Positions 32,101 to 35,612 of a stretch of DNA of 38,936 nucleotides are shown here, piece after piece (position 1 is the first letter of the stretch; each line of letters starts with the position of its first letter). The notes beneath the pieces were generated by a model. That model was given only the letters and a program-made list of their open reading frames with translations. It did not search any database and was not told where the DNA came from. Origin of the DNA: Acidimicrobiales bacterium (GTDB lineage: Bacteria; Actinomycetota; Acidimicrobiia; Spongiisociales; ZC4RG35); assembly GCA_024103415.1 (NCBI GenBank), contig JAGFIR010000183.1, positions 1 to 38,936 of the forward strand. The letters run 5' to 3'. The translations under genes were made by a program, and so were the position numbers.

Positions 32101-32106
32101 TATGGT
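32101..32106 (+). promoter_or_regulatory. Putative -10 hexamer TATGGT of mihF
   Basis: TATGGT lies 46 nt before the mihF ATG. It sits in the loop between CGCTGCC (32091-32097) and GGCAGCG (32125-32131), which could pair. GGGAG at 32140-32144, 8 nt before the ATG, is the likely Shine-Dalgarno sequence. Confidence 0.4.
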
Positions 32107-32152
32107 CGCGGGCCGCGGGCCGCGGGCAGCGTCCAGATCGGGAGACACGCAG

Positions 32153-32467
32153 ATGGCACAGCCGCCGAAATTGACTGACGAGCAGCGCAAGCTCGCGCTG
32201 GAAAAGGCCGCCGAGGCGCGACGCGTCCGGGCCGAGGTCAAGGAGCTCCTGAAGACGGGCTCCATGACCCTCTCCGAGTTGTTCTCACGGGCCGAGACCG
32301 ATGACATCATCGCCGGGCTCAAGGTGGAGTCGTTGATCGCTTCCATGCCGGGGACCGGGAAGATCAAGGCGAAGAGGCTCATGGAGAGCCTCGACATCGC
32401 CGAGAACCGGCGCATCCGCGGCTTGGGAGACAGGCAGAAGGAGGCGCTCCTCGCCGAATTCTCCTGA
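32153..32467 (+). CDS. mihF: Integration host factor, actinobacterial type (MihF)
   Basis: MihF is the actinobacterial nucleoid protein, unrelated in fold to proteobacterial IHF, that binds and bends DNA. The 104 residues match it along the whole length: a long N-terminal helix (LTDEQRKLALEKAAEARRVR), VKELLKTGSMTLSELF, then an S13/H2TH-like part with VESLIASMPGTGKIKAKRLM and ENRRIRGLGDRQKEALL. ATG 32153 has GGGAG 8 nt upstream. In most actinobacteria mihF is followed by gmk and rpoZ; here the next gene is a different kinase that begins immediately at the mihF stop, in the +1 frame. Confidence 0.93.
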   Translation: MAQPPKLTDEQRKLALEKAAEARRVRAEVKELLKTGSMTLSELFSRAETDDIIAGLKVESLIASMPGTGKIKAKRLMESLDIAENRRIRGLGDRQKEALLAEFS

Positions 32468-33032
32468 GCTCGTCGTCGCCATCTCGGGCCGTCCGGGCTC
32501 GGGAAAGAGCGTGGTGGCGAAGGCGCTGGCCGAGGTCCTGTCGGTCGATCACGTGTCGGCCGGCGACTTCATGCGCGAGATGGCGGCAGAGCGCGGCATG
32601 TCCATCCTCGAGTTGTCGCGGGTCGCCGAGAGCGACGACGCCATCGATCTCGAGATCGACGCCCGCACCTCCCGGCTCGCCGGATCTGGTCGCAGCTTCG
32701 TGATGGATGCCCGGCTCGGATGGCACTTCATCCCGCACTCGGTGAAGGTCTTCCTCGACGTGCGGCCCGAGGTGGCCGCCGCCCGGGTGTTCGGCGCCGG
32801 CAGATCGGCGGAGAAGGAGAACGTGAACCTCGACGCCACCGTGCGGGCCATCGCCGAAAGGACCGAGTCGGAGCGGGAGCGCTACATCGAGTACTACGGG
32901 ATCGACTACCTCGATCCGTCCCACTACGACCTTGTGGTGGACACGTCCGACCTGACCCCCGAGCAGGTGGTGGAGCGGATCGTGGAGCACCTCCGGGAGC
33001 GGGATATGGTGAAGGAAGACGGGGCCGGGTAA
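32466..33032 (+). CDS. P-loop nucleotide kinase resembling archaeal-type cytidylate kinase
   Basis: The frame codes for about 188 residues: ELVVAISGRPGSGKSVVAKA with P-loop GRPGSGKS, then HVSAGDFMREMAAERGMSIL, DDAIDLEIDARTSRLA, VFLDVRPEVAAARVF and the long block RYIEYYGIDYLDPSHYDLVV. The SAGDFMRE/AAERGMS and YYGID..D.S.YDLVVDT blocks are those of archaeal CMP kinase (CmkB) and not of Gmk, whose guanylate-binding motifs are absent. It occupies the gmk position between mihF and rpoZ. No ATG, GTG or TTG precedes the P-loop in this frame; the first, GTG 32511, would cut the P-loop off. The start given is the first codon after a +1 step at the mihF stop. CMP/dCMP kinase activity is inferred. Confidence 0.75.
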   Translation, partial: ELVVAISGRPGSGKSVVAKALAEVLSVDHVSAGDFMREMAAERGMSILELSRVAESDDAIDLEIDARTSRLAGSGRSFVMDARLGWHFIPHSVKVFLDVRPEVAAARVFGAGRSAEKENVNLDATVRAIAERTESERERYIEYYGIDYLDPSHYDLVVDTSDLTPEQVVERIVEHLRERDMVKEDGAG

Positions 33033-33058: not shown

Positions 33059-33280
33059 ATGAAGATCGAAGAAGTCGTCGACCGTATCGGGAACCGATTC
33101 GCCGCTGTGGTGGTGTCGGCCCGTCGCGCCCGCCAGATCAACAGCTACTTCAGCCAGCTTGGCGGCGGATACGGCGAGTTCGTGCCACCGCAGGTCCATT
33201 CCCTGTCGCGGAAGCCGCTCACCATTGCCATGGAAGAGATCGCCGAGGGCAAGGTGGCGGTGGTCACCTCCGAGGAATAG
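33059..33280 (+). CDS. rpoZ: RNA polymerase omega subunit
   Basis: Omega assists folding and assembly of the beta' subunit. The 73 residues are short, as usual for omega: KIEEVVDRIGNRFAAVVVSA, RRARQINSYF and the conserved KPLTIAMEEIAEGKV near the C-terminus. ATG 33059 is supported by GAGGAG upstream. The open frame reaches further upstream into the kinase gene but has no similarity there. coaBC follows 3 bp after the stop, so rpoZ-coaBC are co-transcribed, the common arrangement. Confidence 0.95.
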   Translation: MKIEEVVDRIGNRFAAVVVSARRARQINSYFSQLGGGYGEFVPPQVHSLSRKPLTIAMEEIAEGKVAVVTSEE

Positions 33281-33283
33281 CCA

Positions 33284-34462
33284 GTGCTCACCGGCAAGCG
33301 TGTCGTGCTTGCCGTCACCGGGGGAGTAGCGGCATACAAGTCCGCCTACCTCGCCCGTCGCCTCCTCGAAGCCGGCGCCGAAGTCGAGGTCGCCATGTCC
33401 GATGCGGCCCGCAACTTCATCGGCGCCCAGACCTTCGCAGCCATCACCGGGAAGACACCGGTCATCGACCTCTTCGGTCAGGACCTCGTCTCGCCGCACA
33501 CCGAGCTCGCCCGCTGGGCCGACGTGGTCGTGGTCGCCCCGGCCACCGCATCGACCCTCGGCAAGGTGGCCCACGGCATCTCCGACGACCTGATCAGCGC
33601 CCTGCTCCTGGCCACCACCAAGCCGGTCCTGTTCGCGCCGGCAATGCACACCGAGATGTGGGAGCACCCCGCTACCCGGGAGAACATCGAGAAGCTCCGC
33701 TCGTTCGGCTACCACTTCGTCGGGCCGGAGGAAGGCGGACTGGCCGGAGGTGACGTCGGCATCGGCCGGGTCGCCGAGCCGGAGTCCATCGTCGAGGAGC
33801 TGAAGCGCCTCATGGGGGCCCCCGAGGAGCCCCTCGAGATTCTGGTCACGGCCGGAGGGACGAGAGAGCCCCTCGACCCGGTTCGATACCTGGGCAACCG
33901 TTCCACGGGGAAGATGGGCCATGCCATCGCCGACGAGGCCGCCAGGCGCGGGCACTCGGTCGTCCTGGTCACCACCTCCGGCCTGCAGACCCATCCCGCG
34001 GTCGAGGTGGTGCGGGTGGAGACGGCCATGGAGATGAAGGAGGCCGTCGACGGGGTCAGCCCCGACGTGGCGGTGATGACCGCTGCGGTGGCCGACTTCC
34101 GGCCCGCCGACCCTTCCGAGGAGAAGCTTCCCAGAGAAGACGGCCTGGACAGCGTGGAGTTGGTGCCCAACCCTGACATCCTGGCGTCGGTCGTGGCGCG
34201 TGAAGATCGCCCCTACGTCGTCGGGTTCGCCGCCGAGACCGGGTCGGTGGACCGGGCCATCGAGAAGGCCCTAAAGAAGGGCGTCGACCTGATGGTGTAC
34301 AACGACGTGACCAAGCCCGGCTCGGGGTTCGGAACGGACACGAACGAAGTGACCCTCATCGACGCGTCCGGTGAAGTCGAAGCGTGGCCGCAGATGCCAA
34401 AGACGGAGGTGGCCGCCAGGCTTCTCGACCGCATCGTCGCCGACGTCGCGTCCCGGCGGTAA
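33284..34462 (+). CDS. coaBC: Bifunctional phosphopantothenoylcysteine decarboxylase/phosphopantothenate-cysteine ligase
   Basis: CoaBC performs two successive steps of coenzyme A synthesis. The 392 residues have the FMN-dependent CoaC domain ([42 protein letters not shown]-type block, [27 protein letters not shown]) and the CoaB domain from about 180 ([49 protein letters not shown], and [20 protein letters not shown]). In E. coli the segment matching [10 protein letters not shown] holds a Cys that is not seen here. The start is GTG 33284. The stop TAA begins the metK -10 hexamer. Confidence 0.95.
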
Positions 34463-34475: not shown

Positions 34476-35612
34476 ATGACCACCTATTTCACATCTGAAT
34501 CCGTCACCGAGGGTCATCCCGACAAGGTGGCAGACGCCATCTCCGACGGCGTCCTCGATGCAGCCCTCTCCGCCGATCGGTCGGCGCGCGTCGCCTGCGA
34601 GGTCCTGGTCACCACGGAGCTCGCGGTGGTGGCGGGGGAGATGACGCTGAACGGATCGGTCGATGTGGAATCGGTGGTCAGGGACACGATCCGCCGGATC
34701 GGATACGACTTCGACCCGCGCTTCTCGGCGGATTCGGTGACCGTCATGAGCCGGATCGATCCCCAGAGCCCGGACATCGCCGCGGGGGTCGACAACGAGG
34801 GCGCCGGCGACCAGGGCATCATGTTCGGCTTCGCCGTCCGCGAGGCAGACGAGTTCATGCCGATGCCCATATTCCTGGCGCACCGGATCGCCGAGCGTCT
34901 CTCGGAGGTTCGCCGGACCGGCAAGCTCGACTACCTCCTCCCCGACGGCAAGACCCAGGTCATGGTCCGCTACGAGGACGGGCGTCCCGTGGCCGTCGAC
35001 AGGGTGCTCGTATCCAGCCATCACAAGCCGGGCGTTGACAAGACCTCCATGCGCACCGACATCCTCGACGTGGTCGTCAACGAGGTGATCCCCGAGGAGA
35101 TGCGGGTCGACGGCTTCGAGTTCCTCTTCAACCCGACCGGCAACTTCGTCGAGGGCGGCCCGGTCGCCGACACCGGGTTGACCGGCCGGAAGATCATCGT
35201 CGACACCTATGGCGGTTACGCCCGCCACGGGGGCGGCGCCTTCTCCGGCAAGGACGCCACCAAGGTCGACCGTTCCGCGGCCTATGCCGCCCGGCACGCG
35301 GCCAAGAACATCGTGGCCGCGGGCCTCGCCGACAAGTTCGAGATCCAGCTCGCCTACGCCATCGGCATGATCGACCCGTTCTCCATCCACTTCGACGCGT
35401 TCGGGACCGAGAAGGTGTCGCCCGAGACCATCTCCGGGATCCTCAACGACAAGGATCTCTTCGACTTCACACCGCGGGGGATCATCGAACGGCTCGGTCT
35501 CCGGGCTCCGATCTACTCGCCCACGGCCGCCTACGGGCACTTCGGCCGACCCAGCTTCTCTTGGGAACGCACCGACCTGGCGGACGCGATCAGGTCGGAG
35601 GCCGGTCTCTGA
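34476..35612 (+). CDS. metK: S-adenosylmethionine synthetase
   Basis: MetK makes SAM from ATP and methionine; SAM is also the ribosyl donor for QueA. The 378 residues have [20 protein letters not shown] at the N-terminus, GEMTLNG, the signature [45 protein letters not shown], the phosphate loop [20 protein letters not shown], and [20 protein letters not shown]. Start ATG 34476 follows a -10 hexamer; the frame is open 105 bp further upstream inside coaBC without similarity. The stop region overlaps priA. Confidence 0.96.

Follow-up and report, generated by a model that had tools for sequence, protein, structure and literature searches.

Results

A kinase gene lies in the guanylate kinase slot

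We analysed a 38,936-nucleotide stretch of DNA from an Acidimicrobiales bacterium (contig JAGFIR010000183.1; hereafter the window), in which an open frame of 188 codons plus stop (32466-33032) lies in the gene order mihF-kinase-rpoZ-coaBC-metK, all on the forward strand. The upstream neighbour is mihF, encoding the actinobacterial integration host factor (32102-32467; NF041260, 127 bits). Downstream are rpoZ (33059-33280; TIGR00690, 60 bits), coaBC (33284-34462; TIGR00521, 398 bits) and metK (34476-35612), the last named by eye and from the conserved gene order rather than by a profile. From the frame, its profile matches and a structure model, the product is a CmkB-like P-loop nucleoside monophosphate (NMP) kinase, and a predicted GMP kinase, in the slot of gmk, the gene for guanylate kinase (Gmk).

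The best profile for the kinase was not Gmk but TIGR02173 (cyt_kin_arch), at 129.7 bits against a curated cut-off of 102.1; this NCBI equivalog model names the protein a (d)CMP kinase. PF13189 (70.5 bits) and PF02224 (58.2 bits) also matched, the bacterial Cmk model TIGR00017 reached 48 bits, below its cut-off of 135.55, and the Gmk family PF00625 was not among the best 25 of the 32 Pfam families matched. A frameshifted or divergent Gmk was ruled out as the identity of the gene by the lack of a PF00625 match. The initial annotation had described a kinase without Gmk character between mihF and rpoZ, carrying the CmkB-like blocks HVSAGDFMRE, AERGMS and RYIEYYGIDYLDPSHYDLVV; the profiles of the kinase and its neighbours confirm that description, and all three blocks are present in the frame. 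A sequence search of the PDB returned no close family member, its top matches being an archaeal Fap7-type kinase (4cvn) and a bacterial Cmk (3r8c). A phage origin was rejected, as 50,697 phage records contained no match to the kinase.

The first in-frame ATG, GTG or TTG of the kinase is GTG 32511, beyond the P-loop, which indicates either an unusual start codon or another way into the frame. The kinase is in the +1 frame relative to mihF, whose stop in the window reads TCC-TGA. An ATG, GTG or TTG near the kinase start is likewise lacking in five same-strand loci of the 11, counting the window (L014, L016, L017, L019 and L023; 32337-32511 in the window), the start position being CTC in genomes G000, G136 and G065 and CTG in G077 and G137. 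In G000, G136, G065 and G137 the +1 kinase frame is open across the mihF stop, which is TCC-TGA in G000 and G136. Since the frame runs open across that stop, a frameshift fusion with mihF or an unusual start is possible.

Motifs and fold set the kinase apart from Gmk, Cmk and archaeal CmkB

The motifs of the window kinase were read against 36 aligned family rows. The P-loop GRPGSGKS (residues 8-15; 32487-32510) contributes G8, G11, G13 and K14 to the residues that are invariant in 36 of 36 rows, and the NMP-side motif SAGDFMR (residues 31-37; 32556-32576) contributes G33 and R37. An acidic pair, D61/D65 (32646-32660), is invariant on a predicted NMP-binding helix and provides candidate base-recognition residues. 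The family signature D-A-R-L-G-W-H-F (residues 81-88; 32706-32729) holds the invariant D81, R83 and W86 and is preceded by an invariant V79. The LID region R107...R113..E116 (32784-32813), assigned from the alignment at a place where the model's pLDDT dips to 64, includes the invariant R107, and the block R132...E136..R139...Y144 (32859-32897) the invariant R132 and Y144. With D61, D65, D81, R83, W86, R107, R132 and Y144 all in place, the window kinase belongs to what we call the DSR[LM]AWHF subfamily, a grouping defined in the present analysis in which motif invariance is partly a product of selection by the scan pattern.

An AlphaFold2 model of the window kinase, built with the 36 family sequences, had a mean pLDDT of 92.9 and a pTM of 0.87. 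Its nearest solved folds were 3hdt (Z 19.6) and 3fdi (Z 19.3), cytidylate-kinase-like proteins of 17-21% identity to the window kinase whose entry titles assign no function, and the next were the CMP kinases 7l4a (17.8), 2h92 (17.5) and 1kdo (17.0). Guanylate kinases were not among the best 50 fold-match rows of either list, but this does not argue for a different fold. The kinase shares with Gmk the mihF-rpoZ slot and the predicted reaction, but the blocks TTRxxRxxE...YxF...YGT of the Gmk alignment are absent from it. Its fold class is that of bacterial Cmk, and hhalign aligned 165 columns with the E. coli enzyme at a probability of 97.5, but the long insertion that follows the first helices in that enzyme is absent. 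Where E. coli Cmk has DGRDMGTVVFP the window kinase aligns with DAR-LGWHFIP; the aspartate of GRDMG, presumably the cytosine-recognising residue, is absent from the window kinase and not conserved in the family.

Archaeal CmkB, which we take to be COG1102, is likewise a P-loop kinase that lacks the long NMP-binding insert found in bacterial Cmk, and the family resembles it in an SxGxxxRE block and a C-terminal YGID..D...YDL block. A haloarchaeal CmkB (L216, from an adk..DUF106-cmk-cbf5 cluster) nevertheless scores 198 bits on TIGR02173 against 80-130 for those family members that were scored. Three haloarchaeal sequences read ESRLAGW where the family, one residue shorter, reads DSRLA-WHF and the window kinase D-A-R-L-G-WHF, and the LID regions also differ. 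Unlike archaeal CmkB, moreover, the family tracks the loss of Gmk in bacteria that keep Cmk. The assignment of the gene to the archaeal CmkB type in the initial annotation therefore stands as far as the TIGR02173 cut-off, which the kinase passes, while the subfamily is distinct from genuine archaeal CmkB. From the motif that is altered relative to Cmk and CmkB, together with the invariant D61/D65, we infer a changed base pocket that would accept guanine.

The kinase has probably entered the gmk slot more than once

The order mihF-gmk-rpoZ-coaBC, on one strand, was present in all 40 of the Gmk-bearing relatives compared (40 drawn from 119, usually a single genome per genus). In the 11 kinase loci of families f1 and f8 the order is mihF-kinase-rpoZ-coaBC, again on one strand and in every case, and the window kinase has this mihF-X-rpoZ-coaBC position. 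In the four f6 loci the kinase adjoins rpoZ-coaBC on the opposite strand, with mihF beyond the kinase in three; in the fourth, that position falls outside the sequence piece examined. The kinase thus occupies the gmk slot in 15 of 15 bearers of the order, reversed in four. The earlier suggestion that a non-homologous kinase replaced gmk in place is borne out as to place, but 'non-homologous' is too strong because Gmk and the CmkB-like kinase are both P-loop NMP kinases.

A tree of mihF, rpoZ and coaBC (55 rows) needs about 10 changes of slot occupant, at least six of them forced by starred branches, a rough count given that the flanking genes may have travelled with the locus. The kinase tree was built from the 15 members in the order and 45 loci of a wider collection of 59, giving 60 rows; the 14 omitted loci were 12 plus L043 and L048, which come from the same genomes as L015 and L019. 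This tree groups the f1/f8 kinases in a single clade (96/95) next to two DPANN archaea (92/58) and places those of f6 in a clade of their own (99/93). A single ancestral acquisition in the order was rejected, since the constraint that its 15 kinases be monophyletic gave an AU p of 0.0227 and the f6 genes lie on the opposite strand. The rejected monophyly and the two separate clades indicate that the kinase was probably acquired into the same slot at least twice.

Presence of the kinase coincides with absence of Gmk

In the window's own genome, which is 95.88% complete with 0.94% contamination, a PF00625 profile search gave no matches. As a control, the profile matched 10 of 14 named genomes, and those 10 are all the bacterial genomes of the control. 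Across the window's order, which includes Actinomycetota bacterium 0813_bin9 and Acidimicrobiia bacterium MGR_bin274, Gmk was found in 119 of 138 genomes and was absent from 19. Strong TIGR02173 matches (>=95 bits) occurred in 15 of the 138, all among the 19 Gmk-less genomes (Fisher p 9e-17). None of the 119 Gmk-bearing genomes had the kinase at this threshold, and the same gene beside a normal gmk was thus not encountered in close relatives. In the high-quality subset (completeness >=90%, contamination <=5%) the kinase was present in 11 of 11 Gmk-less genomes against 0 of 67 Gmk-bearing ones (Fisher 1.3e-13). The four Gmk-less genomes of the order without the kinase are 63-79% complete.

The genomes are mostly draft assemblies, and it could be argued that Gmk is missing through incomplete assembly and that the kinase is an unrelated insertion. 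We consider this barely credible: the slot is assembled, and filled by the kinase, in all 15 bearers, the Gmk-less genomes of at least 90% completeness carry the kinase without exception, and the same holds for six large Micromonosporaceae genomes without a PF00625 match, described below. A draft-assembly artefact was rejected on the occupied slots and the high-completeness subset.

The family is widespread and usually accompanies loss of Gmk

A scan of genome contigs with two patterns, one of them the D81-W86 motif region, identified 59 family loci in Micromonosporaceae, Bacteroidota, Clostridia, Alphaproteobacteria, CPR-type bacteria, Spirochaetota, Hydrogenedentota, DPANN archaea and others. 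Gmk was searched for in the genomes of 44 of these loci, 13 Micromonospora and two weak partial matches being left out; G138 and G143 duplicate G118 and G077 (identical Cmk coordinates), which leaves 42 of the 44 genomes outside the window's order. PF00625 was absent from 33 of the 44 family-bearing genomes (31 of 42 outside the order), in many phyla. The 11 with a match comprised five canonical Gmks (three in Actinoplanes/Paractinoplanes, one in Hamadaea and one in an Oscillospiraceae genome), two eroded Gmks in Micromonosporaceae, three divergent or fused paralogues and one Der GTPase (G176, recognised by eye); the match in G144 lies within a longer, 395-residue protein. Because the family kinase coexists with canonical Gmk in these genomes, some relatives have not replaced it.

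Within the order of G152, PF00625 matched 139 of 149 genomes. Two strong family matches (224-242 bits) were both in Gmk-less genomes, and three genomes with weaker relatives (128-154 bits) have Gmk, a matching copy carrying an internal stop in two of the three. Eight of the 10 Gmk-less genomes, for which completeness is not given, have no family member.

Several individual loci were also recorded. In a Kaiserbacteria genome (G168; L110, 1022-1543 and 1590-2111) the kinase precedes a divergent Gmk-like gene on the same strand by no more than about 50 bases. Some members (L024-L027, L060, L068, L090, L096 and L217) carry a C-terminal extension of roughly 80-150 residues, for which a Pfam scan gave no match in L025, L060, L068, L090, L096 or L217. 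Large linear Rhodococcus plasmids (L218, L219) encode longer relatives, annotated as cytidylate kinase family protein, which adjoin universal stress protein and Clp N-terminal genes. On a Parabacteroides distasonis plasmid (L217) a member lies among genes for GDP-mannose 4,6-dehydratase (gmd), GDP-L-fucose synthase and hypoxanthine phosphoribosyltransferase (hpt), which are guanine-nucleotide enzymes of GDP-sugar metabolism and purine salvage; this is a single case.

Micromonosporaceae display Gmk before, during and after its proposed replacement

The family kinase was found in 41 of 121 Micromonosporaceae genomes (200-222 bits). Among these 41, Gmk was canonical and intact in seven, eroded in 28 and without any PF00625 match in six, whose genomes measure 8-12.7 Mb. 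Among the 80 genomes without the family, Gmk was canonical in 78, frame-split in one (G386) and missing from one (G392, 3.5 Mb). The association was significant (Fisher 9e-21) with both exceptions counted against the pattern. Micromonosporaceae thus present both enzymes together, an eroded Gmk, and no Gmk, that is, states before, during and after the proposed replacement.

Features of the eroded Gmks were read by eye from the alignment and four printed sequences. The LID block is deleted or unrecognisable in 27 of the 28, G414 keeping the length and losing the consensus, and the P-loop lysine is lost in 16. Where the neighbours were read (G155, G166), the eroded gene lies between mihF and rpoZ. 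Eroded Gmk loci include L108 (2031-2570), L109 (2328-2867) and L146-L172. The eroded frames are open, at 169-207 residues, and since they stay open the protein may have been kept for some other function. In Micromonospora mirobrigensis the kinase is in the same gene cluster as the eroded gmk but at a different insertion point, some 5.5 kb further downstream, between a priA-like gene and a P450-like gene that precedes def and fmt (gene names by eye).

GMP is the predicted substrate

Canonical bacterial Cmk was found in 14 of the 15 kinase-bearing genomes of the order (missing in G137), as was PyrH (missing in G136), and the window's genome encodes both elsewhere. Because each is present in 14 of 15, GMP kinase is, of the three NMP kinases searched for (Gmk, Cmk and PyrH), the one seen to be missing. 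A need for the kinase in place of an absent Cmk was rejected on these counts, and in place of an absent PyrH because 20 of the 21 genomes tested have PyrH, the draft G136 being the exception. The initial annotation had linked the kinase to CMP pools; with canonical Cmk elsewhere in the genome, that link is unsupported.

If the gene instead encoded a true archaeal-type (d)CMP kinase gained by horizontal transfer, then GDP would have to be made by another enzyme or by a broadened Adk or Tmk. The TIGR02173 equivalog match above its cut-off and a fold closest to those of CMP kinases and Cytidylate_kin2 proteins are what one would expect of such an enzyme. Its presence, however, tracks loss of Gmk and not of Cmk in three samples, its motif differs from that of genuine archaeal CmkB, and CMP phosphorylation is already covered by Cmk in 14 of 15 genomes of the order and in 25 of the 33 Gmk-less genomes of the wider collection. 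We therefore regard a (d)CMP kinase as improbable.

Less easily set aside is a broad-specificity NMP kinase acting on GMP as well as CMP, UMP or dNMPs, whose GMP activity permitted the loss of Gmk. The family is kin to CMP kinases, and eight of the 33 Gmk-less bearers, seven with genomes of at most 1 Mb, are also without canonical Cmk, so that the kinase may serve both roles there. Most bearers retain Cmk, however, and any CMP activity would then be insufficient; on balance we consider broad specificity rather unlikely.

Our preferred reading, to which we assign a probability of about 0.9 on sequence evidence, is that the product is a kinase for GMP, and probably for dGMP as well, which displaced the orthologous Gmk at its own operon position. 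The co-occurrence in three samples, the slot swap and the decayed Gmk remnants all point this way, and they strongly support the earlier proposal that the kinase took over GMP phosphorylation. In the mechanism we envisage, with chemistry taken from the superfamily and fold from the model, the P-loop lysine and LID arginines would hold ATP-Mg, and the SAGDFMR and DARLGWHF motifs with the acidic helix D61/D65 would hold the nucleoside monophosphate. The gamma-phosphate would be transferred to GMP, giving GDP, while canonical Cmk and PyrH, encoded elsewhere, would handle CMP and UMP. The kinase gene would have been acquired horizontally; with both enzymes coexisting, Gmk would become redundant and either erode and be lost or be swapped out at the locus.

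Discussion

Guanylate kinase is an essential step toward GTP and dGTP, and the family described here very probably represents a second type of GMP kinase that has gone unrecognised. The kinase fold and the NMP-kinase chemistry are already known. The GMP kinase assignment of the DSR[LM]AWHF subfamily and the repeated displacement of Gmk appear to be new: a literature search, with most subscription papers and preprints outside its scope, found no description of Gmk replacement by this kinase family.

According to PMC4177761, the archaeal enzyme that converts GMP to GDP had not been identified as of 2014. Because the archaeal gene was unknown at that date, the archaeal relatives of the family deserve testing as GMP kinases. 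On a plasmid of Natrinema thermotolerans a CmkB paralogue (L220, 1959-2570; 148.7 bits on TIGR02173) lies beside IMP dehydrogenase; although a single case, it offers a lead toward the missing archaeal enzyme. A wider picture is possible but held tentatively: a second GMP kinase family, hidden under the name '(d)CMP kinase', might have displaced Gmk independently in Acidimicrobiia, Micromonosporaceae, Bacteroidota, Clostridia, Alphaproteobacteria and others and be shared with DPANN archaea, with the CmkB clan supplying the long-missing archaeal GMP kinase.

With all three Gmk states on display in Micromonosporaceae, the replacement of an essential gene becomes open to experiment in organisms that can be cultured. 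If the GMP kinase assignment is true, an essential enzyme would be misannotated in many genomes, including those of Micromonospora and other cultured genera.
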